NCBI RefSeq assembly: GCF_000768315.1
Contig: NZ_AQQX01000003.1
Span: forward strand, 310,001 to 374,000
Direction of reading: 5' to 3'
Length of the DNA: 64,000 nucleotides
From: Pseudooceanicola atlanticus
GTDB taxonomy: Bacteria > Pseudomonadota > Alphaproteobacteria > Rhodobacterales > Rhodobacteraceae
Below the pieces are notes generated by a model. That model did not search any database. It saw nothing but the letters and a program-made list of their open reading frames with translations, and had not been told where the DNA came from. The number at the start of each line of letters is the position of its first letter. The first letter of the stretch is position 1. A program made the position numbers and the translations under genes. Below are positions 7,904-25,742 of the stretch, piece by piece.

Positions 7904-7992
7904 TTTGAACGCAGATACACAGAAGCCAAGAAATGCAGGCGTTTCAGCGCAGGTGTTCAGGTTCTAAATTGATCCAAACAGGGGATTTTTTC

Positions 7993-9640: not shown

Positions 9641-10879
9641 ATGGAAAGTTGGATCGCCGGTGTCGGCATGACACCCTTTGGACGCCATCCGGACCTGTCG
9701 GTGCGCGACATGGCCGAACAGGCCGTCAGGGACGCACTCGCCGACGCGGGGCTCGAGGCCGGGGACCTCGGCGCCGTCTTCTTCGGCAATGCGGTGCAGG
9801 GCGCGATCGAGGGGCAATATGGCGTGCGCGGCCAGATCGCCATGCGCGACCTGCCGCTGGGCCCCATCCCCATCATCAATGTCGAAAACGCCTGCGCCAG
9901 CGCCACCACCGCGCTGCACCTGGCGCTGGCCCATGTCCAGACCGGCCAGGCCGACATCGCGCTGGCGGTCGGCTCGGAAAAGATGGTCCACCCCGACAGC
10001 GCGGTCTCGATGACCGCCTTCGAAGGCTCCTGGGAACGCGGCGAACGCGACCACGTCATCGACCGCCTCGGCGATCTGGGGCGCAACACCCCGACCCCGC
10101 CCGAGGCCGCGGCCCGCGAAACCCCGCATTCCGTCTTCATGGATGTCTATTCCGCCTTCGCCAAGTGGCACATGGCCGAATACGGCACCACCGAACGCCA
10201 GATCGCCGCCATCGCGTCCAAGAACCACGGCCATTCGGTGCACAATCACCGCGCCCAGTTCCAGCGCGCCTTCTCCACCGATGACATCCTCGCGGCCCGG
10301 CTGATCGCCTGGCCCTTCACCCTGCCCATGTGCTCTGCCATTTCCGACGGGGCGGCGGCGGCCATCGTGTGCAACAAGGCCGGGCTGGCCCGCATCAACG
10401 CCGCCCGCGCCGTCAGGGTCCGGGCCGCCGTGATGATGCATGGCGGCCGCCGCGCACCCGACGATTACGCCAACCACATCTCGCGCAAGGCCTCGGCCCG
10501 CGCCTACGAGGTTGCCGGGCTGGGACCGCAGGACATCGACGTCGTCGAATGCCACGACGCCACCGCCTTCGGCGAGCTTCAGCAATCCGAACTGCTGGGC
10601 TTCACCGAACTCGGCGGCGGCGGCGCGCTGGCCGACAGCGGGGCCACGACGCTGGGCGGCCGTATCCCCTTCAACCCCTCCGGCGGGCTGGAAAGCCGCG
10701 GCCACCCGATCGGCGCGACGGGCCTCGCCCAGACCTTCGAACTCGTCACCCAGCTGCGCGGAGAGGCCGGTCCCCGCCAGGTCGACGGCGCCCGCATCGC
10801 CCTGGCCGAAAACGGCGGGGGGTTGATGGGCGTCGAAGAGGCCGCCATCGGCATCACCATCCTCGAGGCCGCGTCATGA
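9641..10879 (+). CDS. Thiolase-family acyltransferase (SCP-x/lipid-transfer-type)
   Basis: A 412-aa thiolase-fold enzyme that cleaves or forms C-C bonds in beta-ketoacyl-CoA. The nucleophilic cysteine is C85 in VENACASATTAL and the GHPIGATG loop is intact near the C terminus. Two changes from canonical thiolase II are visible: the NEAF/HDCF position reads CHDATAFGE, and the C-terminal Cys-x-Gly is replaced by AENGGGLMG. Both fit the non-canonical SCP-x-like group found in sterol, aromatic and branched-chain pathways, some members of which act as aldolases. Strong GGGAGG ribosome site. It overlaps the next CoA-ligase gene by ATGA. Confidence 0.87.
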   Translation: MESWIAGVGMTPFGRHPDLSVRDMAEQAVRDALADAGLEAGDLGAVFFGNAVQGAIEGQYGVRGQIAMRDLPLGPIPIINVENACASATTALHLALAHVQTGQADIALAVGSEKMVHPDSAVSMTAFEGSWERGERDHVIDRLGDLGRNTPTPPEAAARETPHSVFMDVYSAFAKWHMAEYGTTERQIAAIASKNHGHSVHNHRAQFQRAFSTDDILAARLIAWPFTLPMCSAISDGAAAAIVCNKAGLARINAARAVRVRAAVMMHGGRRAPDDYANHISRKASARAYEVAGLGPQDIDVVECHDATAFGELQQSELLGFTELGGGGALADSGATTLGGRIPFNPSGGLESRGHPIGATGLAQTFELVTQLRGEAGPRQVDGARIALAENGGGLMGVEEAAIGITILEAAS

Positions 10880-12381
10880 GCCTCGCGACGCTGCTTCACG
10901 AAGCCGCGCGCAGCCATCCCACCCGGCCCGCCATCTCGGTCGGCAACCGCCAGGCGCTGGATTATGCCGGGCTGGCCCGCGAAGCGGCCGGCATCGCCGC
11001 GTCCCTCGCCCGGCGCGGGCTGCGCCCCGGCGACCCCGTGCTGCTGGCGATGAAGAACACCGAGAGTTACTTCTCGTGGCTCTTCGGATGCTGGTGGGGC
11101 GGCTTCGTCGCCGCACCGGTCAATGCCACGCTGCACGGGCGCGAAATCGCTGGCATCATCGGTGACCTGGCCCCGAAACTCGCGATCACCGATCCGGCCA
11201 TCGCGACCGAGATCGCGCCCCTCTGCCCGACCCTCGACATCATCGAACGTGGCAGCGCCGCGGCGACCGGCGCCGCGCAGACCGACCCCGACGGGCCACC
11301 CTGCCCCGTGGCGCTGACCGACACCGCCTGGGTCTTCTACACCTCCGGCACCACGGGCACGCCCAAGGGCGCCTGCCTCAGCCATGCGAACCTTTTGTCC
11401 ATGACCACCGGCTACCTGGCTGACGTGGACCGCCTGACACCGGACGACACGCTCCTGCACCTCGCCGCCACGTCCCATGCCTCGGGCCTATTCGGGCTCA
11501 GCTTCGTGGCGCGGGCCGCCGAACATGTCCTCATGCCCTCGGGCGGCTATGATCCGGATGACATGCGCGCCATCCTGACGGCCCGCAAGGCGGTGACCTT
11601 CTTCGCCCCCACGACCCTGCTGAGCCGGATGCGCCAGGACGGCATCGGCGACCTGGCGCAGGACCATATCCGCACGGTGCTGACCGGCGCCGGACCGGTG
11701 CTGGCGCAGGATGTGCGCAACGCGGTCGACACCTTCGGGCCAAGGCTCTGGAACGGCTACGGCCAGGGCGAAAGCCCCTGCACCATCACCGCCAACGACC
11801 AGGCCTCCATCGCGCGGGCCATCGCCGAGGGCGACGATACCGGCCTCGTCTCCGTCGGCATCCCGCGCACCGGCGTCACGCTCCGCCTGCTCGCCCCCGA
11901 CGGGTCAGAGGTCCCGCAGGGCGAGGCGGGCGAGGTCTGCCTGCGTGCCCCCACCGTTATGTCGGGTTACCTGAACCGGCCAGAGGCCACGGCGGACACG
12001 CTCGCCGGCGGCTGGCTCCATACCGGCGATATCGGCCGGCTGGACGATCGCGGGCGGCTGACCCTGCTGGACCGGATCAAGGATGTCATCATCTCGGGCG
12101 GCATGAATGTCTATGCGCGCGAGGTCGAGGACGTGCTCTCCACCCACCCCGCCGTGGCCGAGGTCGCGGTGATCGGCACCCCCGATCCCAAATGGGGCGA
12201 GAGCGTCGTCGCGCTGATCGTGCCCGCCCCCGGCGCCACGCCCCCGGCGCTGGCGGAATCGCTCGATGCCCACTGCCTGGATCGGCTGGCCCGGTTCAAG
12301 CGCCCCAAGCGCTACGAAATCCGCGAAAACCTGCCCAGAAACGCCGCCGGGAAGGTGCTCAAGGCGCAGCTACGCAATTGA
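10876..12381 (+). CDS. AMP-forming acyl-CoA synthetase (ligase 1)
   Basis: A 501-aa member of the ANL superfamily that activates a carboxylic acid as acyl-AMP and transfers it to CoA. Motifs: P-loop FYTSGTTGTPKGA (~residue 155), NGYGQGESP, the hinge region TGDIGRLDDRGRLTLLDRIKDVIISGGMNVYAREVED, and a C-terminal lysine in AAGKVLKAQLRN. The ATG overlaps the thiolase stop, fixing the start. Substrate acid unknown. The sequence is not the longer acetyl-CoA synthetase type and resembles medium/aromatic-acid ligases. Co-expression with a thiolase suggests that a beta-keto or unsaturated acid is activated here. Confidence 0.9.
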   Translation: MSLATLLHEAARSHPTRPAISVGNRQALDYAGLAREAAGIAASLARRGLRPGDPVLLAMKNTESYFSWLFGCWWGGFVAAPVNATLHGREIAGIIGDLAPKLAITDPAIATEIAPLCPTLDIIERGSAAATGAAQTDPDGPPCPVALTDTAWVFYTSGTTGTPKGACLSHANLLSMTTGYLADVDRLTPDDTLLHLAATSHASGLFGLSFVARAAEHVLMPSGGYDPDDMRAILTARKAVTFFAPTTLLSRMRQDGIGDLAQDHIRTVLTGAGPVLAQDVRNAVDTFGPRLWNGYGQGESPCTITANDQASIARAIAEGDDTGLVSVGIPRTGVTLRLLAPDGSEVPQGEAGEVCLRAPTVMSGYLNRPEATADTLAGGWLHTGDIGRLDDRGRLTLLDRIKDVIISGGMNVYAREVEDVLSTHPAVAEVAVIGTPDPKWGESVVALIVPAPGATPPALAESLDAHCLDRLARFKRPKRYEIRENLPRNAAGKVLKAQLRN

Positions 12382-12429: not shown

Positions 12430-12518
12430 CTTAACATTGTTGACAGGACGCAAGGTGAAACGGCAAAGTCAATTCGTGACCCCGAGGAGGAGAAGGGGAT
12501 CACCACAGGGAGGACATA

Positions 12519-13268
12519 ATGGCCAAACTATACACCGACACTGACAAGTTCGGGGACGCCAACGCATCGCCGACGGTGGAGGCATTCCACGCCGCCGTTA
12601 AGGACATCGTGCGCCAGAAGCTGGCGGAATCCGGCGGGCATTGGGACAGTTTCGTATTCGACAAATCCTACACGCTGATCACCGAAGAGGACATGAAGGG
12701 CGTCGAGAAGATGCTGCTCGATGCCGGGCATCTCTTCGACTGGTCCGCGGCGATCTCGCCCACCGAACGGCCCGAGGCCTACAAGCCCGTCGAAGGCGTC
12801 AGCGATGACGATATGGGCGAGTTCAGCTTCGAACACGAAGACGCCGTGACCGCCGCCGCCGAAGGCGGGCTGGAACAGCGCGGCCAGGGCGACAACGTGG
12901 CCCGCTACGCCGAGGATTGCGAGGGCGTCGCGCGCTACATCCGTTCGCCCATGCAGGTGATGAAGTTTCTCGAAGAGGGCGTTCCGGACAACACCATCGC
13001 CATCATCGACGACAGTGGCGGCACCCTGACCGCGCCGATCCTGGAACAGTTCAAGGGCGTGATCTGCGCCGGCGGCACCACCCGGTCCCACCTGGGGATC
13101 CTGACCCGTGAATACGGGGTGCCCTGCGTCATGAACGCCAAGGTCAGCGGCATCAAGCAGGGCGACACCGTGCGCATCGAAAGCACGGGCGACCCGAAAA
13201 CCGCCGCCGATTACCAGAAGAATGTCGAACGGACCGTCAAGGTCTGGCGCGTCGCCGGCGCAAGCTGA
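12519..13268 (+). CDS. Stand-alone PEP-utilising-enzyme mobile (phosphohistidine) domain protein
   Basis: A 249-aa protein. Its C-terminal third is the swivelling phosphohistidine domain of PEP synthase, PPDK and enzyme I: GVICAGGTTRSHLGILTREYGVPCVMN, with H191 as the likely phosphorylated residue. The first ~140 residues are helical and acidic and I do not recognise them. No ATP-grasp or PEP-binding barrel is present, so it must receive phosphate from another protein; the PPDK-like protein at 16985 is the obvious donor. Precedent: phenylphosphate synthase of Thauera also divides these domains between polypeptides. First gene of the operon, with a strong GGGAGGA ribosome site. Confidence 0.82.
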   Translation: MAKLYTDTDKFGDANASPTVEAFHAAVKDIVRQKLAESGGHWDSFVFDKSYTLITEEDMKGVEKMLLDAGHLFDWSAAISPTERPEAYKPVEGVSDDDMGEFSFEHEDAVTAAAEGGLEQRGQGDNVARYAEDCEGVARYIRSPMQVMKFLEEGVPDNTIAIIDDSGGTLTAPILEQFKGVICAGGTTRSHLGILTREYGVPCVMNAKVSGIKQGDTVRIESTGDPKTAADYQKNVERTVKVWRVAGAS

Positions 13269-13292
13269 GCCGCGCAAGGGAGGAGACAGACA

Positions 13293-14846
13293 ATGACAAT
13301 GCCGCTGAATTACAGCCAGTTGCTGGAAACCAACAACCTGATCCAGCAGAACGTCGACGAAAGCTATTGGCTCTGCGTCACCCGCACGGTCCAGGAATCC
13401 AAGCTGTTCCCGGTGCCGTCCTACATGATGCTCAGCTACCTGATGGCCTTCTACCGCTATCCGTCGCTGCTGCGTAAGATCGAAACCCGCATGTCCGCCG
13501 AGGAACTGGGCGACCGGTCCCGCGAAATGGCGATGAAGCACCGCGCCCCGGGCGTCAGCTGGGGCCTGCCGAACTTCTACCTGCTGGGCCGCGAATGGCT
13601 GATCAACATGGGCGTGATCAAGCCGACCGACGCGATCGAGGACGTCATGTACGTCATGGATTTCTGGAAACGCTTCCAGCTCGCGCTCTACCGCAATGAT
13701 GGGCATATCAGCCGCGTGCAATACGGCCACCGCGCCCAGATCCTGTCGGAACGCCAGACCCAGGTCTTCCATTCCGATCTCTACACCTGCGAGAACGGCG
13801 ACGAGTTGCACGAGGCCGCGCACCAGTTCATGGCCTCCGCCTCGCAATATGGGTTCCTGATCTCCTGCGAAAGCCGGATCAGCCTGCACAACCATGGCCC
13901 CTACAAGCTGAACGAGAATTCCGAGATGATCGTGCGGGACTTCATGGACCTCGCCGAAAGCGATTTCCCATGGCTCGACGGCGTCGCCGAAGGGGTGGAG
14001 TTCAACAACATCACCGTCACGATGGCCGCCAAGGATTGCCATTTCTACCTGGTCGACGACTGGGGCAGCTTCGAGGCCGAGCCCGAGTTTTCCGCCGACA
14101 AGCTGATCGGCGTCGGGCTCTACACCTCCGACAACCTCTCCGAAGGTTACGTACCGCTGGGCATGGACAGCCGTGAGGACCTGATCGCGATGTTCAAGAA
14201 GCTCGACGCGCAGGTGAAAGAGGCGATGAACAACCTCTGGAAGCGCATCGCGGGCTATTCCCGCGACCAGATGATGGATGCGGGCGCGATCACCTATTTC
14301 GCGATCATCAAGGACCTCGCCCATATCGCCGGCGTCTACGACGTGGACGACTGGATGAAGGTCGACGAACGCGCCGAACGCTTCCGTCCGCTGCTCAACG
14401 ACGAATATGGCCGTGATGTGCTGGGCGAACTGGTGGGGCTGCTGTCCAACCCCAGCCAGAAGCTGTCGGAGTATCAGATGATGATGCACTCCAATGCGCC
14501 GACCAAGATGTACACGCCGATCCCCTATTCGGTTCTGTCGGGCGAAACCTACACGCCCACGGCGGGCCCGCTCTATCCCGGCATCACCAACCTGCCCGAG
14601 AAGAAGGACGTCTATACCACCACGCGCGGCAAGATGAACTTCGCCGAGTACAACAAGGCCAGCCAGGAATTCTGCCCCGCGGCGCTCGTCCCCGAGAACC
14701 GGTTCCTGTGCGAAACCTGGGTCAAGTACAACGCCGGGTCCGAAAAGGCCGACGCGCTCTACGAAGTGTCGCAGCAGGCCTCGCGCAAGCTGGCCGGCAA
14801 AGGGTCCTCCCTGTCCCGCGACGAGGTCGAAGGCCTCCGGGACTGA
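13293..14846 (+). CDS. Unrecognised 517-aa protein of the phosphotransfer operon
   Basis: I do not recognise a family. The protein is soluble-looking, rich in aromatic residues and Met, with no signal peptide, membrane segment or P-loop. Visible features are a central ISLHNHGPYKLNENSEM stretch (two close His), a possible beta-rich segment GVEFNNITVTMAAKDCHFYLVDDWG, an amphipathic helix near EDLIAMFKKLDAQVKEAMNNLWKRI, and a proline/tyrosine-rich tail (KMYTPIPYSVLSGETYTPTAG). It lies between the swivelling-His protein (24 bp upstream) and CoA ligase 2. By analogy with rifampin phosphotransferase and phenylphosphate synthase, it may be the substrate-binding phospho-acceptor subunit; that is inference only. 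Codon use looks like its neighbours. Confidence 0.8.
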   Translation: MTMPLNYSQLLETNNLIQQNVDESYWLCVTRTVQESKLFPVPSYMMLSYLMAFYRYPSLLRKIETRMSAEELGDRSREMAMKHRAPGVSWGLPNFYLLGREWLINMGVIKPTDAIEDVMYVMDFWKRFQLALYRNDGHISRVQYGHRAQILSERQTQVFHSDLYTCENGDELHEAAHQFMASASQYGFLISCESRISLHNHGPYKLNENSEMIVRDFMDLAESDFPWLDGVAEGVEFNNITVTMAAKDCHFYLVDDWGSFEAEPEFSADKLIGVGLYTSDNLSEGYVPLGMDSREDLIAMFKKLDAQVKEAMNNLWKRIAGYSRDQMMDAGAITYFAIIKDLAHIAGVYDVDDWMKVDERAERFRPLLNDEYGRDVLGELVGLLSNPSQKLSEYQMMMHSNAPTKMYTPIPYSVLSGETYTPTAGPLYPGITNLPEKKDVYTTTRGKMNFAEYNKASQEFCPAALVPENRFLCETWVKYNAGSEKADALYEVSQQASRKLAGKGSSLSRDEVEGLRD

Positions 14847-14900
14847 TGTCGGCGGGAGGGGTTCGCCCCTCCCCCGGCCCCAAAGACAGGATAATTACCA

Positions 14901-16379
14901 ATGCAGATCGGATCTCTCATCCGACGCGCAGCGCGTCATTTCAAGACCGCGCCCTGCCTCGTGCAGGACGACCGCGTCATGAGCTTCGCCGAATTCGACG
15001 CGGCCACCGACCGTCTGGGCAACGCGCTTCTGGCTTCGGGCCTCGAACCGGGTGACCAGGTCGGTGTGCTCCTGCCCAATTCCATCGAATGCATCGTCGC
15101 CTATTACGCCCTGGCGAAATCCGGGCTGGTGCGGGTCGGGATGAACACCCGCGAAACCATCGGCGATCATGCCTACAAGCTGACCGACAGCCAGTCCCGC
15201 GCGGTGATCCATCCCGGCGACGACGATTTCCCGGTCGAGATGAAGATCGACCTGGCCACGCTCAACCGCATGATCGACACCGGCGACAGCACCCCCTGTT
15301 CCGTCGCCCGCGCGCTCGATGCGCCCTACCGCATGGGCTATACCGGCGGCACCACCGGCCAGCCCAAGGCTGTCACCCTGACCGAACGCGGCGAACTGGC
15401 GGAATTGTCGGCCTTCCTGACCGACCTGATGCCCGACATCCGCGAAGGCGACACCTTCCTGCACGCGGCCCCCATTGCCCATGCCTCGGGCGCGTTCTTC
15501 CTGCCCGCGCTGGTGCGCGGCGCGCGCAGCCTGATGATGACGAAATTCGACGCCGCGCAATTCGTCGACATGGCCCAGGCCGAAAAGGCGACGCTGACCT
15601 TCCTCGTGCCGACCATGCTGTCGATGATCCTCGAGGAACCGGGCTGCGCCGACGCCACCTTCGACCTGCGCCGCATCGCCTATGGCGCCTCCCCGATCTC
15701 CGAGGCCGTGCTGCGCCGCGCCGAGGCCCGCTTCGGCCAGGTCTTCGCCCAATGCTACGGCCAGGCCGAAAGCCCCATGGTCATCACCTGCCTCAAACCC
15801 GAGGATCACGACCGGATCGGCTCCTGCGGGCGGCCCTTCACCATCGTCGAGGTCAAGGTGCTGGACGATGACGACAACGAGGTCCCGGTCGGCGAAACCG
15901 GCGAGATCTGCTGCCGCGGCCCCCAGACCATGGCCTATTACTGGAACCGTCCCGAGGCGACGGCCAAGACCTTCCGCAACGGATGGCTTCACACCGGCGA
16001 TGTCGGGCGCATGGACGAGGACGGGTTCTTTTACATCCTCGACCGCAAGAACGACATGCTGATCTCGGGCGGCTACAACGTCTACCCCCGCGAGGTCGAG
16101 GACATCCTGCTCGAGGTCGAGGGCGTCGTCGAGGTCGCCGTGATCGGCCTGCCCGACGAAAAATGGGGCGATCGCGTCCATGCGGTCGTGTCGGGCCGCC
16201 CGGGTCTCGACCCCGATGCCGTTCTGAAACACGCTAAATCGCGGCTGGCCGGACATAAATGCCCCAAGGGCGTGGATGTCTGGGACAGCCTGCCAAAAAG
16301 CGGCGCGGGCAAGATCCTGCGGCGCAAGGTTCGCGACGACATGATCGCGGGCAGCAAACACAGGGAGATGTCCGAATGA
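14901..16379 (+). CDS. AMP-forming acyl-CoA synthetase (ligase 2)
   Basis: A 492-aa ANL-superfamily ligase. The P-loop reads GYTGGTTGQPKAVTLT, with G replacing the usual S in the T-S-G-T-T position. Other motifs are YGQAESPMV, TGDVGRMDEDGFFYILDRKNDMLISGGYNVYPREVED and the C-terminal SGAGKILRRKVRDDM carrying the adenylation lysine. It belongs to the long/medium-chain and aromatic-acid ligase group. It shares the hinge and C-terminal motifs of ligase 1 but is clearly not a recent duplicate. Its stop overlaps the next start as ATGA, so it is translationally coupled to the 201-aa protein of the PPDK-like system. Confidence 0.9.
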   Translation: MQIGSLIRRAARHFKTAPCLVQDDRVMSFAEFDAATDRLGNALLASGLEPGDQVGVLLPNSIECIVAYYALAKSGLVRVGMNTRETIGDHAYKLTDSQSRAVIHPGDDDFPVEMKIDLATLNRMIDTGDSTPCSVARALDAPYRMGYTGGTTGQPKAVTLTERGELAELSAFLTDLMPDIREGDTFLHAAPIAHASGAFFLPALVRGARSLMMTKFDAAQFVDMAQAEKATLTFLVPTMLSMILEEPGCADATFDLRRIAYGASPISEAVLRRAEARFGQVFAQCYGQAESPMVITCLKPEDHDRIGSCGRPFTIVEVKVLDDDDNEVPVGETGEICCRGPQTMAYYWNRPEATAKTFRNGWLHTGDVGRMDEDGFFYILDRKNDMLISGGYNVYPREVEDILLEVEGVVEVAVIGLPDEKWGDRVHAVVSGRPGLDPDAVLKHAKSRLAGHKCPKGVDVWDSLPKSGAGKILRRKVRDDMIAGSKHREMSE

Positions 16380-16981
16380 TGAAGGATCCGCAGCTGGCCC
16401 TCCACGGGCTGGCGATCAAGAAACACGGAACCGCCGAAGAGGTCGCCGCCATCACCGCGCTCGATCCAGCCGTGGTCACCAAGCACCTCGATGCCGCCGC
16501 CGAGACGGGCCGCGCGCTCAAGACCGGCGACAAGTACATGTTGCAGCCCACGGCGCAGATCGCGCTCAAATCGGCCTATTCCCGCGATTATTCCGATGAA
16601 CGCGCCAATGCCGACATGCAGGCCGCCTATGACGATTTCGAACGGGTGAACGAACAGCTGAAATCGCTCATCACCGAATGGCAGACCATGACTGTCGGCG
16701 GCAAGTCGATGCCCAACGACCATTCCGACAAGGCCTATGACGACAAGATCATCGACCGCCTGGGCGACCTGCACGAACGGGCCGAGCCGGTGCTGGACCG
16801 GCTGGCCGCCGGGCTGCCGCGCCTGTCGGTCTGGAAACAGCTGCTGCTGACCGCGCTGGAACGCGCCGAGGACGGAGAGATCGACTGGGTCTCCGACGCC
16901 CGTTGCATGAGCTACCACACCGCCTGGTTCGAAATGCACGAGGACCTGATCCGCGTGCTTGGCCGCGAACGCCTGGAGTAA
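16376..16981 (+). CDS. 201-aa winged-helix-like protein coupled to the PPDK-like gene
   Basis: The N-terminal ~60 residues look like a winged helix (KHGTAEEVAAITALDPAVVTKHLDAAAETGRALKTGDKYMLQP). The rest is helical and charged, ending in SYHTAWFEMHEDLIRVLGRERL. The gene starts within the stop of CoA ligase 2 and ends 3 bp before the PPDK-like gene, so all three are co-translated. I have the impression that similar C-terminal sequences accompany short PPDK proteins in other bacteria, but cannot confirm it. It may be an accessory subunit or regulator of the phosphotransferase rather than a transcription factor. Start: tandem ATGATG at 16376. Confidence 0.8.
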   Translation: MMKDPQLALHGLAIKKHGTAEEVAAITALDPAVVTKHLDAAAETGRALKTGDKYMLQPTAQIALKSAYSRDYSDERANADMQAAYDDFERVNEQLKSLITEWQTMTVGGKSMPNDHSDKAYDDKIIDRLGDLHERAEPVLDRLAAGLPRLSVWKQLLLTALERAEDGEIDWVSDARCMSYHTAWFEMHEDLIRVLGRERLE

Positions 16982-16984
16982 CCC

Positions 16985-18757
16985 ATGACCCGCTGGACCA
17001 CGAAACTCGACGGCTCGGACCTGCCCGACAAGCTGCTGATCGGCGGCAAGGGCTGGTCGGTCGCGCGCATGGCCGCCCTTGGCCTGACCGTGCCGCCCGC
17101 CTTCGTCATCACGACCGAGGCCTGCACCGAATACCGCCGCACCAAGGATTTCCCCGACGGCCTGATCGACGAGATCGCCGAGGGCCTGTCCTGGCTCGAG
17201 GCACAGACCGGCCGCACCTATGGCCACGGCCCCTCGCCGCTGCTGGTCTCCGTGCGCTCCGGTGCCGCGATCTCCATGCCCGGCATGATGGATACCGTGC
17301 TCAACATGGGCATCTGCGGCGAAACCGAAACCGCCCTGACCGAGGAATGCGGCGACCCGGCCTTTGCCCGGGACACCCATCGCCGGTTTCATGAACTCTA
17401 CAGCCACATCGTGCTCAAGACCGACGCGGGCGAGCTGTCCAATGACGACACGGCGCAGGACTGGGCCGAAACCATCCGCGCGGCCTCGGGCAAGGACCTG
17501 CCCGCCGACCCGACCGACCGGCTGCACGCCGCCGTCCGCGCGGTGTTCGAAAGCTGGGACTCGCGGCGGGCCAAGCGCTACCGCAAGCATCACGACATCT
17601 CGGACGATCTCGGCACGGCCGTGGTCATCCAGGCGATGGTCTTCGGCAACATGAGCGGCGCCTCGGGCACCGGCGTCATGTTCTCGCGCAACCCGATCGA
17701 CGGCAATCCGACGCCCTACGGCGAATACCTCGTCAACGCCCAGGGCGAAGACGTGGTGTCGGGCAAGTTCACGCCCAGGCCACTCGACACGATGCGCGAC
17801 ACCGTGCCCGAGGCGCATGACGCCCTGCTCGACGGCGCCCGCCGGCTCGAGGTCGAAAACGGCGACGTGCAGGACATCGAATTCACCGTGCAGGACGGCA
17901 CGCTCTATTTCCTTCAGGCCCGCGCCGCCAAACGCGCGCCCGAAGCGGCGCTGAAGATCGCCACCGACATGCTGGACGAGGGCACGATCGACGAGGCCAC
18001 CGCCCTCACCCGCATCACCCCCGACCAGGTCCGCTCCCTGCTGGCCCCGCGCCTGGCCGACGGCGCCGCCGCCTCTGCGGAAACGCTGGCAAGGGGCGAA
18101 GCGGCCTCTCCCGGCATCGGCATCGGTGTCGTCGTCACCGACAGTGACGAGGCCGAACGCCGCGCCGCCAATGGCGAGGCCGTGATCCTGGCCCGCGCCA
18201 CCACCAGCCCCGACGACCTGCACGGCATGATCGCCGCCATGGCCGTCGTGACCGAACGGGGCGGATCGACCAGCCATGCCGCCGTCGTCAGCCGCGCCCT
18301 GGGCGTGCCCTGCGTCACCGGCTGCGGCGACGCCACCGTCACCGCGCTTGCGGGCCGCACCATCACCGTCGACGGCGCCGAGGGCCTGATCCTCGCCGAT
18401 GCGCTCGACGTGCAGGAACCCGACGAAACCGCGCTCTCGGGCATCGTGCGCCTGACCCGGATCGCCGAAGGCGTCAGCCCGGTCAGGGTCATCCTGCCCG
18501 GCGACGCGCCGTCATCGGCGCTCGATCTGAACGCGGTCGAGGGCGGCAGCGAACTGGATCGCCTGCCCGAACTGCTGAAAGGCGTCGATATCGCCGGCGG
18601 CGGTGCGCTGGCCGATGACAAGGGCGTCGCCATCGCGGTCGCGGCCGGGGTGAAAACCATCGTCGGCCAACCCCGCCTCGCCATCCTGCTCGCCGCCCTG
18701 CGCGCGCAGAAAACCAACGAGGATCGCGAAACCATCGCGGTCGAGGCTTCGGTCTGA
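16985..18757 (+). CDS. Truncated pyruvate-phosphate-dikinase-like protein (ATP-grasp plus phosphohistidine domain)
   Basis: A 590-aa protein matching the first two-thirds of PPDK (usually ~880 aa). Residues 1-320 form the ATP-grasp nucleotide-binding region (LLIGGKGWSVARMAALGLTVPPAF, SVRSGAAISMPGMMDTVLN, GTGVMFSRNPIDG, FLQARAAKR). Residues ~370-470 are the swivelling domain with TERGGSTSHAAVVSRALGVPCVTG, catalytic H431. The C-terminal PEP/pyruvate TIM barrel is absent and replaced by ~120 residues of unknown fold. It should therefore phosphorylate its histidine from ATP but cannot make or use PEP itself. The acceptor must be another partner, plausibly the proteins at 12519 and 13293. It is followed by the biotin carrier after 34 bp. 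Confidence 0.88.
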   Translation: MTRWTTKLDGSDLPDKLLIGGKGWSVARMAALGLTVPPAFVITTEACTEYRRTKDFPDGLIDEIAEGLSWLEAQTGRTYGHGPSPLLVSVRSGAAISMPGMMDTVLNMGICGETETALTEECGDPAFARDTHRRFHELYSHIVLKTDAGELSNDDTAQDWAETIRAASGKDLPADPTDRLHAAVRAVFESWDSRRAKRYRKHHDISDDLGTAVVIQAMVFGNMSGASGTGVMFSRNPIDGNPTPYGEYLVNAQGEDVVSGKFTPRPLDTMRDTVPEAHDALLDGARRLEVENGDVQDIEFTVQDGTLYFLQARAAKRAPEAALKIATDMLDEGTIDEATALTRITPDQVRSLLAPRLADGAAASAETLARGEAASPGIGIGVVVTDSDEAERRAANGEAVILARATTSPDDLHGMIAAMAVVTERGGSTSHAAVVSRALGVPCVTGCGDATVTALAGRTITVDGAEGLILADALDVQEPDETALSGIVRLTRIAEGVSPVRVILPGDAPSSALDLNAVEGGSELDRLPELLKGVDIAGGGALADDKGVAIAVAAGVKTIVGQPRLAILLAALRAQKTNEDRETIAVEASV

Positions 18758-18791
18758 ACCCCCAAGGACCCGGTCAGGAACGGAAAAGAAC

Positions 18792-19301
18792 ATGACACTG
18801 AAACAAACCGATATCGAGGCTCTGGTCGAACTCTTCGGCGACAGCTCCTGGAAAGAGATGCACCTGCGCATGGGCGAGGACGAGTTGTTCCTGACCAAGG
18901 ATGCCAACGCCACCAGCCCGATGGCCCGCGGCAATGCCCAACCGGCCACCGCCCCGGCGCCCGCACAGGCTCCAACCCCGGCCCCGGCTCCCGCACAGGC
19001 CCCAACACCAGCCCCCGCCGCGGCCCCGGCCCCCGCGGACAGCACCGACCGCTCCGGCTGGATCGAGGTCAAGGCCCCGAACCTCGGCACCTTCTACCGC
19101 GCCCCCAGCCCCGAGGCCGACCCCTACGTGACCGTGGGCGCAACCGTGACCGAAGAGACCGAGATCTGCCTGATCGAGGTGATGAAACTCTTCACCACCA
19201 TGCGCGCGGGTCTCAAGGGCACCGTTCGCGAGATCGTGGCCCAGGACGGCGACATGGTCGAATTCGGTGCCACGCTCATGTGGATCGAACCCGAGGCCTG
19301 A
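18792..19301 (+). CDS. Biotin carboxyl carrier protein
   Basis: A 169-aa AccB-like carrier. The N-terminal helical region (1-45) is followed by a Pro-Ala-Gln linker (about 52-82) and a biotinyl domain whose attachment lysine is K132 in IEVMKLF, with the usual Met before it. The thumb region EAPDPYVTVG is also recognisable. This organism should have another accB for fatty-acid synthesis; this copy lies immediately before a dedicated biotin carboxylase (4-bp gap), so it serves the pathway-specific carboxylase. Its linker is encoded by an internal DNA repeat (see repeat entry). Confidence 0.93.
   Translation: MTLKQTDIEALVELFGDSSWKEMHLRMGEDELFLTKDANATSPMARGNAQPATAPAPAQAPTPAPAPAQAPTPAPAAAPAPADSTDRSGWIEVKAPNLGTFYRAPSPEADPYVTVGATVTEETEICLIEVMKLFTTMRAGLKGTVREIVAQDGDMVEFGATLMWIEPEA
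18955..19017 (+). repeat. 30-bp tandem duplication encoding the BCCP Pro-Ala linker
   Basis: Two imperfect in-frame copies of a ~30-bp unit containing CCCGCACAGGC and CCAAC, which encode two near-identical APAQAPTPAP decapeptides. This makes the linker length likely to vary between strains. Confidence 0.75.
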
Positions 19302-19304
19302 TCC

Positions 19305-20666
19305 ATGACCGTATCCCGCATCTTCGTGGCCAACCGTGGCGAGATCGCCCAGAGGGTTCTGCGCACCGCCCGCGACATGGGCCTGGAAACCGTGATCGGC
19401 GTGTCCCAGGCCGATGCCGAGGGGCTGCCCGCCCAGATGGCCGACCGCGCCGTCGTGCTGGGCCCCGCCCAGGCCACGCAAAGCTACCTCAACGTCGACC
19501 TTGTGCTTCACGCGGCCAAGGCCACGGGCTGTGACGCGCTGCATCCGGGCTACGGCTTCCTGTCGGAAAAACCCGAACTGGCCCGCCGCTGCGCCGAAGA
19601 GGGCATCACCTTCATCGGCCCGCGCCCCGAAACCATCGAGGATATGGGCGACAAGCTCTCGGCCATCGCCGTGGCCCGCGCCGCCAAGGTGGCGACCGTG
19701 CCCGGCACCGACATGATCGACAGCGCCTCCAAGGCCAAGGCCGCGGCCGAAGAGCTCGGCTACCCCGTGGTGATGAAGGCCAGCGCCGGCGGCGGTGGCA
19801 AGGGCATGTTCCTCGCCCGCTCCGCCGACGGGCTGGAAAGCGCCTTCAACCGCGCCACCCGCGAGGCCCAGGCCGCCTTCGGCGATGGCCGGCTCTACAT
19901 GGAACGCTTCGTCGAAGCCGCCCGCCACGTGGAGGTGCAGGTGATCGGCGACGGCGAAGGCAACGTGATCCATTTCGGCGACCGCGACTGTTCCGTGCAG
20001 CGCCGCTACCAGAAACTGATCGAAGAGGCGCCGGTCACCGCCATGTCCCCTGCCCTGCAGCAGAAACTGCGCGAGGCGGCGGTGCGGCTCTGTGCCCATG
20101 CGAAATATCGCGGCGCCGGCACGGTCGAGTTCCTCTACGATGTCGCGCGCGAGGATTTCTACTTCATCGAGGTCAACTCGCGCATCCAGGTCGAACACCC
20201 GGTGACCGAGGAGATCTCGGGCCACGACCTGATCCACCACCAGATCCTCGCCGCCAGCGGCCAGGGCCTTGTCCTGTCACAGGACGAGATCACCCTGTCC
20301 GGTCACGCGCTCGAGGTCCGCATCAACGCCGAAGACCCGGCCCGCGACTTCGCCCCGGCGCCCGGCCGCCTGACCGCCTGGGCTCCGCCCTTGCAAGACG
20401 GCGTGCGACTCGACAGTCACATGCGCGACGGCGATCTCGTGCCGCCCTTCTATGACAGCATGGTCGGCAAGCTGATCACCCGCGCCAGGACCCGCGACGA
20501 CGCGATCGAAGCAATGCTGCGCGCCATCCGCGATTTCCGGGTCGAGGGCATCACCACGACGCTGCCCTTCGCCGCCCGCATCATCGACCACCCCGATTTC
20601 CGGGAAAACCGTATCACCACGCGCTGGCTCGAGGATCAGTTCCTCGCGGCGCAAGACGTTGCCTGA
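19305..20666 (+). CDS. Biotin carboxylase subunit
   Basis: A 453-aa AccC-type enzyme that carboxylates biotin on the carrier protein using ATP and bicarbonate. It has the N-terminal IFVANRGEIAQRVLRTAR, the glycine-rich ATP-grasp loop MKASAGGGGKGMF, the DRDCSVQRRYQKLIEEAP segment and the active-site EVNSRIQVEHPVTEEISGHDL with the catalytic Glu/Arg. Length and motifs are complete, so the enzyme should be active. It sits between its carrier and carboxyltransferase genes with 3- and 11-bp gaps, forming a three-subunit biotin enzyme distinct from the housekeeping acetyl-CoA carboxylase. Confidence 0.94.
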   Translation: MTVSRIFVANRGEIAQRVLRTARDMGLETVIGVSQADAEGLPAQMADRAVVLGPAQATQSYLNVDLVLHAAKATGCDALHPGYGFLSEKPELARRCAEEGITFIGPRPETIEDMGDKLSAIAVARAAKVATVPGTDMIDSASKAKAAAEELGYPVVMKASAGGGGKGMFLARSADGLESAFNRATREAQAAFGDGRLYMERFVEAARHVEVQVIGDGEGNVIHFGDRDCSVQRRYQKLIEEAPVTAMSPALQQKLREAAVRLCAHAKYRGAGTVEFLYDVAREDFYFIEVNSRIQVEHPVTEEISGHDLIHHQILAASGQGLVLSQDEITLSGHALEVRINAEDPARDFAPAPGRLTAWAPPLQDGVRLDSHMRDGDLVPPFYDSMVGKLITRARTRDDAIEAMLRAIRDFRVEGITTTLPFAARIIDHPDFRENRITTRWLEDQFLAAQDVA

Positions 20667-20677
20667 AGGAGACCAAG

Positions 20678-22138
20678 ATGGCCCATGTTGAATTCCTCGA
20701 CGAGACCATGCGCGACGGCCAGCAAAGCCTCTGGGGCATGAGAATGCAGGCCGGCATGGCCTTGCCGGTCTCCCCCCTCATCGACCGGACCGGGTTCCGG
20801 GTGATCGACCTGGCCGGGTCGTCGCTGATGGAGGTGCTGATCAAGCACGCCCAGGAAAACCCCTGGGAAGGGCTCGACCTGCTGGTCAATTCCATGCCGC
20901 GCACGCGGCTGCGGGGCGGCATGCGCTCCAACGCCTCCGTCACCTTCGGGGTGACGCCGGATGCGCTGATGGACCTGTGGATGCGGCAGCTGAACGAACA
21001 CGGCATCCGGTCCTTCTGGATCTACGACGTGCTCTACAACATCGACAAGATGCACCGCCTCGCCAAGGTGGCCAAGGAATACGGGTCCGAGGTCGCCGGA
21101 TCGATCATGTACGTGCAATCGCCGGTCCATACCGACGATTACTTTGCTGAAAAGGCCGGGCAGATGGCCGCCTCTCCGGATATCGACACGATCCTGCTTT
21201 ATGATACTGCCGGCGTGCTGGAAAAAGAGCGGCTTCAGACCCTGATCCCCGCGATCCGCGCCAAGATCGGCGACAAGCCGATCGAGTTTCACGCCAACAA
21301 CATCCTCGGCCAGTCCGGCAAGGCCTACCTGGACGCGGTGGACCTGGGCGTCACGATCCTGCACACCGCCTCGCGCTCCATGGCCAACGGCCCCTCGGTG
21401 CCGTCGACGGAAAGCGTGGTCAAGAACCTCGAGATCCTGGGCCACACCCACAACCTCGACAAGACGCTCTTCAAACCGGTCGAGGAGCACTTCCGCGCCG
21501 TCGGCAAGGCGGCGGGCTTCCTGGTGGACCAGTTCAACGAATACGACGTGCTGGCCGTGCATCACCAGATCCCCGGCGGCATGACCGGCACGCTCAAGGC
21601 GCAGCTGGCTCAGCACAAAATGACCGACCGCCTGGATGACGTGCTCGAGGAAACCGCCAAGGTGCGGCGCGAACTGGGCTATCCCGGCATGGCGACGCCG
21701 TTCTCCCAGCTGGTGGGCACGCTCGCGGTGCTCAACATCGTCACCGGCAAGCGCTACTCCGTCATCCCCGACGAGGTGATCCAGTACGCCGCCGGCTATT
21801 ACGGCGAAACCGTCGCGCCGATCGACGACAACGTGCTTGACCAGATCATGACCTCCTCCCGCGCGAAAGAGGTCCTGGCCGCCCCGCCCGAACAGCCCTC
21901 CATCGAGGATCTGCAAAAGCAATACGGCACCACCGACCCGGACGAGCTGATCCTGCGCGCCCTGGTTCCCGGCCCTGCACTGGACAAGATGCGCGCCGCC
22001 GGGCCGGTCAAGACGACCTACCCGCTGCTCTCCAGCCCGGAACTGGACCAGGTGCGCAAGCTGCTGAAAGTGGCCAACCTGCCGCTCGTCCAGATCCAGA
22101 GCAGCCAGCTCGACCTGACCCTGCGTGGCGGGGCCTGA
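20678..22138 (+). CDS. Carboxyltransferase subunit, divergent pyruvate-carboxylase/oxaloacetate-decarboxylase type
   Basis: A 486-aa HMGL-like TIM-barrel protein plus C-terminal PYC_OADA region, aligning by eye with pyruvate carboxylase CT domains (RDGQQSL, NPWEGL, MYVQSPVHT, HQIPGGMTGTL, GTLAVLNIVTGKRY). The metal-binding Asp is kept (D13). However, the carbamylated lysine of IKDM is Tyr (Y175 in LLYDTAG), the second metal His of HxH is Asn (H205-A-N207), the His after RDA is Gln, and the catalytic Thr/Ser after PGGM is not aligned. The active site is thus remodelled, and the acceptor is probably not pyruvate. It may alternatively use a phosphorylated or enolate acceptor made by the dikinase-like proteins upstream. 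Confidence 0.87.
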   Translation: MAHVEFLDETMRDGQQSLWGMRMQAGMALPVSPLIDRTGFRVIDLAGSSLMEVLIKHAQENPWEGLDLLVNSMPRTRLRGGMRSNASVTFGVTPDALMDLWMRQLNEHGIRSFWIYDVLYNIDKMHRLAKVAKEYGSEVAGSIMYVQSPVHTDDYFAEKAGQMAASPDIDTILLYDTAGVLEKERLQTLIPAIRAKIGDKPIEFHANNILGQSGKAYLDAVDLGVTILHTASRSMANGPSVPSTESVVKNLEILGHTHNLDKTLFKPVEEHFRAVGKAAGFLVDQFNEYDVLAVHHQIPGGMTGTLKAQLAQHKMTDRLDDVLEETAKVRRELGYPGMATPFSQLVGTLAVLNIVTGKRYSVIPDEVIQYAAGYYGETVAPIDDNVLDQIMTSSRAKEVLAAPPEQPSIEDLQKQYGTTDPDELILRALVPGPALDKMRAAGPVKTTYPLLSSPELDQVRKLLKVANLPLVQIQSSQLDLTLRGGA

Positions 22139-22139
22139 C

Positions 22140-23300
22140 ATGCGCCGCGCCGTCATCGTCGATATCCTGCGGACCCCCTTCGGCAAAGGCCGCGAGGGGG
22201 GCGCGCTCTCTCACCTGCACCCGGTGGACCTCTATGCCCGCACGCTGCAGGCACTGCTGGCCCGCACCGGCATCGACCCGGACCTGGTCGAGGACGTGAT
22301 CACCGGCTGCGTCATCCAGGTCGGCGAACAGGCGGCCAATATCGGCCGCCAGGCCGTGCTGGCCGCCGGCCTGCCCGAAACCGTGCCCTCGGTCACGCTG
22401 GACCGCAAATGCGGCTCGGCCCAGCAGGCGATGGATTTCGCCGCCCAGGGCGTCATCGCGGGCGCCTATGACGTCGTGATCGCCGGCGGTGTCGAGATGA
22501 TGAGCCGCGTGTCGATGAAATCGAACCGCATGGGCAAGGACAACATGGGCCCCATGTTCCACGCCCGCTATCCCGATGGGCTGGTCCACCAGGGCATCTC
22601 GGCCGAGCTGATCGCCGCCAAGTGGGGCCTCGACCGCGACGCGATGGACCGCTTCGCCCTGCGCTCCCACCAGCTGGCCGATGCCGCCCGCGACCGGATC
22701 GGCGCGGATGTCATCGACATCGACGGCGTCACCGCCGACGAGGGTCTGCGCCCGTCCTCGACGCTGGACGCCCTCGGCGGCCTGCGCATCGCCTTCCAGG
22801 ACGACGCCCTGCACGACCGCTTCCCGCAGATCAACTGGTCCGTCACCGCGGGCAATTCCAGCCAGGTCACCGACGGCGCAGGCGCCGCCCTGATCATGGA
22901 GGAAAGCCTCGCGCTCAAGCTCGGCCTGACACCGCGTGCCGCCTTTGCGGGCTTTGCCACCGTGGGTGACGATCCGGTGATGATGCTGACAGGCCCGATC
23001 CCCGCCACCGCGAAATTGCTGGCCCGCAAGGGGCTGACCATCGACGACATCGCCGCCTTCGAGGTGAACGAGGCCTTCGCGTCGGTCGTGCTGGCCTGGC
23101 AGGCCGAAACCGGTGCCGACCCGGACCGCGTGAACCGCTATGGCGGCGCCATCGCGCTTGGCCACCCGGTCGGAGCGTCGGGGATGCGCCTCATGGCCAA
23201 CCTCGTCGCAGCACTCGAGGACGGCGCAGGCCGTTACGGGCTTCAGACCATGTGTGAAAGCGGCGGCATGGCCAATGCCACCCTGATCGAACGCGTATAG
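22140..23300 (+). CDS. Acetyl-CoA acyltransferase (thiolase II type)
   Basis: A 386-aa degradative-type thiolase. All catalytic elements are present: nucleophile Cys in LDRKCGSAQQAMD, EVNEAFASV, GHPVGASG and the C-terminal CESGGMANA. It should cleave a beta-ketoacyl-CoA to acetyl-CoA or propionyl-CoA plus a shortened acyl-CoA. The ATG at 22140 is one base after the carboxyltransferase stop; an overlapping GTG at 22125 is less likely. Being in one operon with the carboxylase, it fits a scheme in which carboxylation creates a beta-keto acid whose CoA ester is then thiolysed. Confidence 0.93.
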   Translation: MRRAVIVDILRTPFGKGREGGALSHLHPVDLYARTLQALLARTGIDPDLVEDVITGCVIQVGEQAANIGRQAVLAAGLPETVPSVTLDRKCGSAQQAMDFAAQGVIAGAYDVVIAGGVEMMSRVSMKSNRMGKDNMGPMFHARYPDGLVHQGISAELIAAKWGLDRDAMDRFALRSHQLADAARDRIGADVIDIDGVTADEGLRPSSTLDALGGLRIAFQDDALHDRFPQINWSVTAGNSSQVTDGAGAALIMEESLALKLGLTPRAAFAGFATVGDDPVMMLTGPIPATAKLLARKGLTIDDIAAFEVNEAFASVVLAWQAETGADPDRVNRYGGAIALGHPVGASGMRLMANLVAALEDGAGRYGLQTMCESGGMANATLIERV

Positions 23301-23309: not shown

Positions 23310-23609
23310 ATGTACATCGTATCCGTGCTCTACCCCAAGGGCAATTTCGACCTCGACTATTACCGGCAGAGCCACCTGCCCCTGGTCGACCGGCTGCTCA
23401 CCCCCGAAGGGATGAGCGAAATGGCCTATTGGCAACCGACCGAGGACGCCCCCGACGCGCCGTTTCAACTGATCGCCGAGCTGCGCTTTGCCGATGCCGA
23501 AACCGCCGGAAAGGCGCTGGCGCTGCATGGCAAGACCACGCAGGACGACATCCCGAACTTCACCTCGGTGACACCCTTGATCCTGACGGGAACGCTGCGC
23601 GCGGGCTGA
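23310..23609 (+). CDS. EthD-like small ferredoxin-fold protein
   Basis: A 99-aa protein with the EthD signature (YIVSVLYPKGNFDLDYYRQSHLPLVDRLL, then two beta strands around FQLIAELRFADAETA). EthD-fold proteins are dimeric alpha/beta barrels found in degradation operons for ethers, steroids and aromatics; most lack a proven reaction, some act as lyases or accessory proteins. It starts 9 bp after the thiolase with an AGGAGG ribosome site and is the last gene of the operon, 3 bp from the convergent regulator gene. Confidence 0.85.
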   Translation: MYIVSVLYPKGNFDLDYYRQSHLPLVDRLLTPEGMSEMAYWQPTEDAPDAPFQLIAELRFADAETAGKALALHGKTTQDDIPNFTSVTPLILTGTLRAG

Positions 23610-23612: not shown

Positions 23613-24344
23613 TCAGCCCGCCGCCAGCGGTCGCACCATCCGGTCCACGCCGGCCTGGAACGCATTGTCGTCCAGCCGCGAAATCGACAGCCGCGACCGC
23701 CAGATATGGATGCGCATCAGGCGGTCGGCGCGGATGAACTGCCCTGCCTTGATCGCCGCGATCACCGCCCGGTATTCGTCGAACTGCTTGCTGCGGTCGG
23801 GTTCCGACATCAGCGTCTGGAATTGCAGCCGCAGCAGGTGGATCTGCATCAGCGGGATGATCCGGTGCAGCTCGTCATTGCCCGAGGCCCGGAACAGGAT
23901 GTCGTAGAACTTGCGCCGCGCCTCGATGAAGCTGCGGGAATCCCCCCGATCCTCATGCGCCAACAACTCTTCGCTGACCGCGTCGAATTCCTCGCGCATG
24001 TAGCCCTTGGACACCTGCCGCGCCGCCAGGTTCGCCCCCAGCCCGCAGGTCACTTCCAGCACCTGCAACAGGTCCTGCGCATCCTTGCGGTCCAGCGCGC
24101 GGACGAAGGCGCCGCGGTTCTGGTTCAGCGTCACGATCCCTTCGGCCGCCAGGCGTTTCAGCGCCTCGCGGACCGGGCCACGGCTGACGCCCAGGCTTTC
24201 GGTCAGGTCGGCCTCGACCAGGCGCTGGCCCGGCACCAGCGTGCTGTTCTGAATGGCGGTGATGATGGCGTCGAACACGATGTCCGGTGAACTCTTGGTC
24301 ACGATCTTGGCCTCGGTCACAGTCCTGGAAGACGGTTTCTTCAT
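23613..24344 (-). CDS. GntR-family (FCD/FadR-type) transcriptional regulator
   Basis: A 243-aa regulator. The winged helix is at residues ~20-90 (DAIITAIQNSTLVPGQRLVEADLTESLGVSRGPVREALKRLAAEGIV) and an FCD ligand-binding helical domain covers ~100-230, with His/Asp residues typical of its metal site (FYDILFRASGNDELHRIIPLMQIH). FCD proteins bind carboxylates or acyl-CoA and usually repress. It lies convergent to the carboxylase operon. It is the only regulator in the first 26 kb, so it is the best candidate to bind the four copies of the 17-bp motif. Its own 5' region shows no copy. Confidence 0.92.
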   Translation of the reverse strand: MKKPSSRTVTEAKIVTKSSPDIVFDAIITAIQNSTLVPGQRLVEADLTESLGVSRGPVREALKRLAAEGIVTLNQNRGAFVRALDRKDAQDLLQVLEVTCGLGANLAARQVSKGYMREEFDAVSEELLAHEDRGDSRSFIEARRKFYDILFRASGNDELHRIIPLMQIHLLRLQFQTLMSEPDRSKQFDEYRAVIAAIKAGQFIRADRLMRIHIWRSRLSISRLDDNAFQAGVDRMVRPLAAG

Positions 24345-24998: not shown

Positions 24999-25742
24999 AT
25001 GGCCATCATCATCACCGGCGGAACCAAGGGGATCGGACGCGATGTCGCCCTCGCCTTCAGCGCGCCGGGCAAGACCGTCGTCGTCAACTACCATTCCGAC
25101 AGCGCGGCCGCCCAGGCCACCGCCGCCGAGATCGAAAAAGCCGGGGCCACAGCCATCGTCGTGCAGGCCGATGCGGGCACGCCCGAGGGCTGCGCCGACC
25201 TGGCCCGCGCGGTCAGCGATGCCGGCGAACGCGCCGAAATGCTGGTCCATTGCGCCGTCGATGCCTACGCGACCCCCACGCTCGACGCAGCGCCCGACCG
25301 GTTCACCAAGGCGGTGACTACCAACGGCATCTCGCTCCTTTTCCTGGTGCAGGCCTTCGATGCCCTGCTCGACAGCGGATCGACCGTGTTCTTCTTCTCC
25401 AGTCGCGGCGGCCGGATCGTCGTGCCGAACTACGCCGCCATCGGCGTCGGCAAGGCCGCGACCGAGGCGCTGATCCGCTACATGGCGACCGAACTTGCCC
25501 CGCGCGGCATCCGCGTCAATTCCGTCGCCCCCTCCATCGTCGGGACCGAGGCGGTGCGCACCATCTTCGGTGAGGACACCACCACATCGCTGATGGAGCA
25601 CGCGGCCCGCGACAACCCCTCCGGCCGTGCCGTCGCCCCGGACGATTATTGCGAGCTGATCCGCTTCCTCGCCTCCCCCGCCGCGCAGTTCATCACCGGC
25701 CAGGTGATCTACGTGAACGGCGGCGCCAACCTCGCCGCGTGA
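24999..25742 (+). CDS. SDR-family reductase with Y-x6-K active site (FabL-like)
   Basis: A 247-aa short-chain dehydrogenase with cofactor motif TGGTKGIG at the N terminus and a C-terminal FITGQVIYVNGG strand. Unlike classical SDRs (YxxxK), the active site reads YAAIGVGK, a Y-x6-K spacing. The following ALIRYMATELAPRGIRVNSVAPS matches FabL and other enoyl-reductase-type SDRs. The reaction may thus be enoyl or keto reduction of the pathway intermediate. GAGGAGG ribosome site. Single-gene unit divergent from DUF3237. Confidence 0.88.
   Translation: MAIIITGGTKGIGRDVALAFSAPGKTVVVNYHSDSAAAQATAAEIEKAGATAIVVQADAGTPEGCADLARAVSDAGERAEMLVHCAVDAYATPTLDAAPDRFTKAVTTNGISLLFLVQAFDALLDSGSTVFFFSSRGGRIVVPNYAAIGVGKAATEALIRYMATELAPRGIRVNSVAPSIVGTEAVRTIFGEDTTTSLMEHAARDNPSGRAVAPDDYCELIRFLASPAAQFITGQVIYVNGGANLAA

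Follow-up and report, generated by a model that had tools for sequence, protein, structure and literature searches.

In Rhodococcus rhodochrous GD02, the Hpe pathway starts with the phosphorylation of 4-hydroxyacetophenone or acetovanillone by HpeHI; HpeCBA accepts only the phosphorylated ketone for carboxylation, HpeD removes the phosphate, and HpeE and HpeF are proposed to finish the route; the acv genes of Sphingobium SYK-6 (acvABCDEF) are homologous to the Hpe set (passages of PMC9618137 and PMC12167813; the pathway is also treated in part of PMC13101465). Thus, the coupling of a dikinase to biotin-dependent carboxylation is already known, and the statement of an earlier note on the DNA considered here, that no described pathway joins the two, does not hold. 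The subject of this work is a set of 12 genes at positions 9641-23609 of a 64,000-nucleotide stretch of the Pseudooceanicola atlanticus genome (the window; contig NZ_AQQX01000003.1, positions 310,001 to 374,000). These genes include a PPDK-derived kinase and a three-part biotin carboxylase and, judging by sequence comparison, they are a distinct variant of the Hpe/Acv-type coupling. The gene content, conserved linkage, gene fusions, conserved catalytic histidines, and changed carboxyltransferase site can be read directly from the sequences. Of the novel system claimed earlier, the coupling itself is therefore not new, while the PPDK-type kinase, the family of a 517-aa protein, and the changed carboxyltransferase set this variant apart. 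No paper on this operon was found by title in the open-licence literature.

The 12 genes lie head to tail on the plus strand and are separated by 3-54 bp or overlap, with the exception of a 137 bp gap upstream of the gene at 12519, so they very likely form one operon. Promoter-like and terminator-like patterns were no more frequent in a scan of the operon than in shuffled sequences. The operon begins with a thiolase of the SCP2/lipid-transfer type (9641..10879, 412 aa, Thiolase_N and Thiolase_C_1 domains), for which the top NCBIfam model is 'lipid-transfer protein' at a score under the cut-off of that model, and an AMP-forming coenzyme A (CoA) ligase (10876..12381, 501 aa, AMP-binding domain), the start of which overlaps the preceding stop codon. 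They are followed by a stand-alone phosphohistidine swivel protein (12519..13268, 249 aa), the 517-aa protein (13293..14846), a second AMP-forming CoA ligase (14901..16379, 492 aa, AMP-binding domain), a 200-aa protein (16379..16981, start possibly at 16376), and the PPDK-derived kinase (16985..18757, 590 aa). The carboxylase genes come next, encoding a biotin carboxyl carrier protein (BCCP; 18792..19301, 169 aa, TIGR00531 at 132 bits against a cut-off of 115), a biotin carboxylase (19305..20666, 453 aa, Biotin_carb_N, CPSase_L_D2, and Biotin_carb_C domains), and a carboxyltransferase (20678..22138, 486 aa, PYC_OADA). The last two genes encode a thiolase (22125..23300, 391 aa), whose nearest PDB sequence is the acetyl-CoA acetyltransferase 3svk (E-value 4e-78), and an EthD-domain protein (23310..23609, 99 aa, PF07110, E-value 4e-5). 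Domain, family, and PDB sequence evidence confirmed that all of the genes listed in the earlier note are present; its list was right in its entries and omitted the 200-aa gene (16379-16981) and the thiolase/ligase pair (9641-12381), together with the SurE, IphP/Y_phosphatase3, EthD, GntR, and SDR genes of the operon and its surroundings.

Like the Hpe and Acv sets, the locus combines an ATP-dependent dikinase carrying a swivel histidine, a three-part biotin carboxylase, a phosphatase, and a CoA synthetase. In contrast to them, the kinase is of the PPDK type and is spread over four genes, no relation of the 517-aa protein to HpeH/AcvA can be detected, and SurE/IphP phosphatases stand in place of the NagD homologue; no NagD-homologous phosphatase was found among the 12 operon genes by domain, family, and PDB sequence comparisons. 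The window genome also has no match over the cut-off of NF006153, the model of the HpeH/AcvA-type kinase subunit. For comparison, three loci were fetched (L098, L099, and L100) in which an HpeH/AcvA-type gene occurs with genes for an ATP-grasp protein, BCCP, and carboxyltransferase; in L098, a gene that by eye looks HAD-like follows them. They are taken to be Acv-like from their gene order and from the first-gene product, which is 85-86% identical to a SYK-6 protein. As a point against full equivalence, the L098 and L099 stretches yielded no biotin carboxylase, and the one in L100 lies about 5 kb further on. The window carboxyltransferase and BCCP are 36% and 33% identical, respectively, to those of L098.

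On balance, the operon probably serves as a catabolic route for a ketone bearing a phosphorylatable oxygen, with phosphorylation, carboxylation, dephosphorylation, CoA ligation, and thiolysis as its successive stages. For the individual reactions we infer the following course, with a hydroxyl rather than an enol oxygen being phosphorylated. The 590-aa kinase would take a phosphoryl group from ATP onto its own His431, from which it would pass, directly or via a His-to-His relay, to His191 of the swivel protein. The swivel would hand it to a substrate bound by the 517-aa protein, with the 200-aa protein as a structural or regulatory member of the swivel/517 unit. BCCP, biotin carboxylase, and carboxyltransferase would then put CO2 beside the carbonyl of the phosphorylated ketone, the SurE and/or IphP phosphatase would strip the phosphate, CoA ligase would activate the resulting beta-keto acid, and thiolase would cut it into acetyl-CoA and a shorter acyl-CoA. 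The order of phosphorylation, carboxylation, CoA activation, and cleavage, already suggested in the earlier note, agrees with the characterised Hpe precedent; what that series lacked is the dephosphorylation step suggested by the neighbouring phosphatases.

The linkage of these genes was analysed in relatives of the 517-aa family. The family was scanned in one genome per species, the best 80 of 161 relatives were fetched, and linkage was counted in the 37 of these 80 loci that are at least 21 kb long, i.e., have both 10-kb flanks complete (full-flank loci). All 37 have the swivel and 200-aa genes beside the 517-aa gene. The PPDK-like kinase is present in 26 of them, and the carboxyltransferase accompanies it in 26 cases out of 26, which supports the earlier assumption that kinase genes and carboxylase genes are parts of one system and provides the co-occurrence across genomes that had been proposed as a check. 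In 25 of the 37 loci, kinase, biotin carboxylase, carboxyltransferase, ligase, and thiolase are all found, and three loci have the carboxyltransferase with no kinase nearby. The count for BCCP depends on the threshold (9/37 at 100 bits and 27/37 at 40 bits). The gene order differs in many sphingomonads, with the exceptions of L033 and L046, and the core order from swivel through thiolase is kept on plasmids of Rhodococcus oxybenzonivorans and R. pyridinivorans.

The operon is rare and is spread over scattered marine, soil, and freshwater bacteria. In the class, four of 190 members carry it, the window genome included, with G097 counting among the four through distant relatives only; in a sample of the phylum (299 genomes with completeness of 90 or more), the window genome is the sole carrier. 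Matches were found in nine of 72,556 plasmid records. By record name, the carriers belong to the Alpha-, Beta-, and Gammaproteobacteria and to Rhodococcus, and the names of some refer to pollutant degradation.

The 590-aa kinase exceeds the cut-off of NCBIfam model NF004531 (693 against 456 bits), under which, as PRK05878, VadK presumably falls too, and the PPDK_N and PEP-utilizers matches confirm the presence of ATP-grasp and swivel domains. It differs from full-length PPDK in the C-terminal phosphoenolpyruvate (PEP)/pyruvate-binding domain, which was not found: Pfam gave no match to it in the 590-aa protein, and TIGR01828 reached 510 bits against a cut-off of 843. The swivel protein contains the PEP-utilizers domain (PF00391, Pfam E-value 5e-8), and its profile matches the AcvA/HpeH-type swivel (E-value 3e-10). 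Its AlphaFold2 (AF2) model, with a predicted local distance difference test (pLDDT) value of 82.9, matches, among others, RPH and the PPDK carrier domain; pyruvate kinase and LD-carboxypeptidases are also among the best matches, all at low template modelling (TM) scores. For the residue counts, relatives had to be covered to 85% or more and to be free of stops and X; this left 45 carboxyltransferases, 74 swivels, and 28 PPDK-like proteins, to which the window copy of each and four, two, and four further copies, respectively, were added. The predicted catalytic His191 of the swivel is conserved in 77/77 aligned copies and His431 of the PPDK-like kinase in 33/33.

VadK (Rv1127c) is a truncated PPDK with ATP-grasp and swivel domains that autophosphorylates its own histidine; it is proposed to be a regulatory histidine kinase in mycobacteria, with no encoded partner domain, and the passages of the paper describing it name no phosphate acceptor (PMC13400623). 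It resembles the 590-aa kinase in having ATP-grasp and swivel domains and no PEP/pyruvate domain, whereas the window operon also encodes candidate partner proteins. RPH is described as modular, with ATP-grasp, substrate, and swivel units, and phenylphosphate synthase PpsABC and CreHI as multi-gene dikinases for small hydroxylated molecules, PpsA and CreH being HpeH homologues (passages of PMC12167813). The window set shares with RPH the modular units and the swivel match, but its units are in separate genes, and the RPH family model scores only 59 bits against a cut-off of 999, with the swivel as the best stretch. With PpsABC and CreHI it shares the multi-gene dikinase, but the HpeH/AcvA-type profile gave no match with the 517-aa protein.

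The 517-aa protein, called unrecognised in the earlier note, indeed has no Pfam or NCBIfam family at an E-value of 0.1, and its best PDB sequence has an E-value of only 0.22. It represents a real gene family, since 1060 homologous proteins (90% clusters) match it at E-values of 0.001 or lower. Single proteins combining the 517-aa and 200-aa parts were found (P0096 and P0100), and single frames with both parts are also present in L041, L068, and L084. In Rhodococcus opacus B4, a 793-aa protein unites, in this order, a swivel, a 517-like part, and a 200-like part. The gene encoding it overlaps a phosphatase gene, and a PPDK-like gene is located 7 kb away on the opposite strand. This triple fusion suggests that the swivel, 517-aa, and 200-aa parts act as one enzyme. 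A distant locus of the same class has the arrangement swivel - 517-like - 200-like - 835-aa PPDK-like protein. Given the fusions and this four-gene locus, the four kinase genes look like one old module that was joined by the carboxylase in many genomes. In the 835-aa protein (L082:5809-8313, genome G097), the TIGR01828 match extends to residue 625, and the last 300 residues have no Pfam match. By eye, its C-terminal part looks like a degenerate PEP/pyruvate domain, and the protein is possibly an evolutionary intermediate.

The 200-aa protein was modelled with a winged-helix N-terminus and a helical C-terminus, and a relative on a Methylibium plasmid is annotated as MarR. The combined 517+200 model (pLDDT 86.4) was built on a flawed and noisy alignment (A2), in which MAFFT set separate 200-aa rows on the 517-aa part (about residues 13-365), and the winged-helix fold of the 200-aa part should be read with this in mind. 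Among the matches listed in the fold search with this model, winged helices of the 200-aa part dominate, and RPH is absent.

Two phosphatase genes are located directly upstream of the operon: an IphP-type phosphatase (Y_phosphatase3; 7933..8748, plus strand, 271 aa, PF13350, E-value 5e-58) and a SurE phosphatase (8764..9531, minus strand, 255 aa, PF01975 and NCBIfam SurE). Both are candidates for the pathway phosphatase. A SurE or IphP match was found in 32 of the 37 full-flank loci, SurE itself lying inside the flanks of 22. The window genome (4.94 Mb) has two SurE and three Y_phosphatase3 matches, the window copies included, and by a rough hand estimate the chance of SurE in a random 21-kb stretch of it is about 1 in 100, related loci being non-independent. 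On the R. oxybenzonivorans and R. pyridinivorans plasmids, a gene annotated as tyrosine-protein phosphatase is located inside the operon, after the swivel-to-thiolase core. This distribution suggests that SurE and IphP phosphatases serve the pathway as its dephosphorylation step. Phosphorylation of a hydroxyl is favoured because of the frequent phosphatase match and its position inside the operon in Rhodococcus.

Several observations weigh against the proposed ketone route. No phosphatase match was found in five of the 37 full-flank loci. Neither a kinase nor a carboxyltransferase is near the swivel/517/200 genes in eight of the 37, all eight having the arrangement IphP phosphatase - swivel - 517 - 200 - SDR; for four of these (L061, L070, L072, and L076), another locus with the same assembly prefix is of the main type, which is complete in L025 and is cut off at a contig end or flank in L021, L023, and L039. 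No carboxylase subunit was found near the R. opacus B4 fusion gene, where 25 kb were read, and the kinase module of this strain may be used without carboxylation. It follows from these eight loci and the fusion that carboxylation is not the sole use of the module. Comparison of the 517-aa profile A1 with the 15-member AcvA-type profile A4 by hhalign gave a probability of 0.5 and an E-value of 0.11, so that the case for this protein as a substrate subunit is built on linkage and fusion. The sequences likewise do not support the protein as a split-off substrate domain of HpeH. The counted relatives are non-independent samples. Finally, the carboxyltransferase has lost the catalytic lysine and, in most cases, the second histidine of the known site, and it cannot be taken for granted that it still carboxylates in the known way.

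The last point leads to a different view of the chemistry. The carboxyltransferase belongs to the PycB/OadA superfamily (PDB sequences 5ks8, E-value 6e-62, and 2nx9, E-value 3e-58), which it shares with PycB, the oxaloacetate decarboxylase alpha subunit, and transcarboxylase 5S. According to structure work on 5S, the two histidines of the His-x-His motif bind the metal. In the 50 carboxyltransferases counted, the second of them is Asn in 46 and His in four, the window residue being Asn207. Lys178 of oxaloacetate decarboxylase (2nx9, numbered from the alignment), which is proposed as the carboxyl acceptor (a passage of PMC2881705), aligns to Tyr175 of the window protein. This position is occupied by Tyr in 48 and by Glu in two of the 50, whereas the lysine and His-x-His are retained in all three Acv-like enzymes. 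Judging by these alignments, the window protein belongs to a carboxyltransferase branch without the catalytic lysine. The replaced residues are the main argument for an enol-phosphate route, in which the kinase would phosphorylate a simple ketone at its enol oxygen, giving the carboxyltransferase a ready-made enolate in the form of the enol phosphate, so that the metal and lysine machinery would no longer be needed. However, an enol phosphate is expected to lose its phosphate in the carboxylation, and the phosphatase linked in most loci should then be needless; we also know of no enzyme that carboxylates an enol phosphate in this way. We regard this route as unlikely. Similarly doubtful is a wider reading, in which the PPDK-derived four-gene dikinase, with a two-swivel His-to-His relay, would make an enol phosphate or otherwise activated ketone, and the carboxyltransferase, its lysine and mostly one metal-site histidine gone, would carboxylate it by a new, lysine-independent mechanism. 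If this were true, the carboxyltransferase would represent a third kind of ketone carboxylase beside the acetone/acetophenone carboxylases and HpeCBA.

The kinase genes can also be considered apart from substrate phosphorylation. The regulatory role described for VadK (part of PMC13400623), together with the winged-helix model and the MarR annotation mentioned above, would suit a phosphorelay from the PPDK-derived kinase via the swivel to the 200-aa protein, controlling the operon or the carboxylase. A separate GntR regulator is nevertheless linked in 17 of the 37 full-flank loci, the presence of the 517-aa protein and of phosphatases agrees better with a small-molecule kinase, and the HpeHI precedent is enzymatic; a phosphorelay is rather improbable. 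Loci with the module and no carboxyltransferase (the eight above and R. opacus B4) could mean that kinase set and carboxylase have substrates of no relation to each other and are kept in one operon only for regulation, but the carboxyltransferase found in all 26 full-flank loci with the PPDK-like kinase, across two gene orders and two phyla, makes this very unlikely. The names of the superfamilies (PPDK; pyruvate carboxylase subunit B) might further point to an anaplerotic set, in which PPDK and a pyruvate carboxylase of two subunits would convert pyruvate, PEP, and oxaloacetate into one another. Such a role seems hardly credible: the kinase lacks a detectable PEP/pyruvate domain, the carboxyltransferase lacks the lysine, and ligase and thiolase genes are inside the operon. 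The host genome, moreover, encodes homologues of PPDK size (874-aa frame) and pyruvate-carboxylase size (1236-aa frame) elsewhere, and therefore the operon copies need not be the housekeeping ones. The degradation of a phosphorylated ketone remains the reading that we prefer.

Downstream of the operon, a GntR/FCD regulator gene is convergent to it (23613..24344, minus strand, PF00392 and PF07729), followed by a DUF3237 gene (24412-24894, minus strand), which lies between the regulator and the gene of a 247-aa SDR oxidoreductase (24999..25742, plus strand, adh_short_C2). SDR matches occur in nine of the 37 full-flank loci with the window SDR as a query and in 21 with a second SDR query. Upstream, a sugar-type ABC transporter (4189-7832, minus strand) is encoded by genes for a periplasmic binding protein, an ATPase, and a permease, a hint that the substrate may be polar. 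The families of the binding protein (f25) and the ATPase (f29) were observed in five and four of 81 clustered stretches, respectively, the window included. An HpaB-like hydroxylase is encoded close to one plasmid copy of the operon and a protocatechuate dioxygenase in the host genome; taken together, the transporter, the SDRs, and these two enzymes do not pick out a single substrate.

Some other arrangements can be noted among the loci. On plasmid pROB02 of R. opacus B4 (L103:11368-15636), the triple fusion, the overlapping phosphatase of tyrosine type, and an ecdysteroid-22-kinase-family gene are present. On plasmid RPME01 of Methylibium petroleiphilum PM1 (L102:11890-14779), 517-like, swivel, and 200-like genes adjoin a cluster with a cobalamin-dependent mutase and an AMP-ligase; a link of this cluster to branched alcohol or acid catabolism is possible. 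A second, more divergent set of swivel, 517-like, and fused swivel-517 genes is located upstream of the operon on pRB98 of R. oxybenzonivorans (L101:7902-11103). In L082 (8771-10009), an EthD domain is fused to a methane-monooxygenase gamma-chain-like domain, and in L069 (16025-20418) there are three consecutive carboxyltransferase matches, with no biotin carboxylase matched there. Six loci (L020, L025, L032, L061, L065, and L066) come from bins titled Klebsiella pneumoniae; their clusters resemble those of environmental gammaproteobacterial bins, and the titles look wrong.

A lignin-ketone route of a similar kind, with a different kinase, is known (passages of PMC9618137 and PMC12167813). If the substrate of the operon described here is a lignin or additive ketone, its genes would be potentially useful for valorisation or clean-up. 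The lysine-less carboxyltransferase branch offers a natural comparison that makes the role of the lysine testable. The 517-aa protein defines a family for which the libraries searched contain no model; together with the swivel and 200-aa proteins, it is a candidate partner for truncated PPDK histidine kinases. For the bacteria that carry the operon, we predict a second kinase-carboxylase strategy for the breakdown of ketones, one that is assembled differently.

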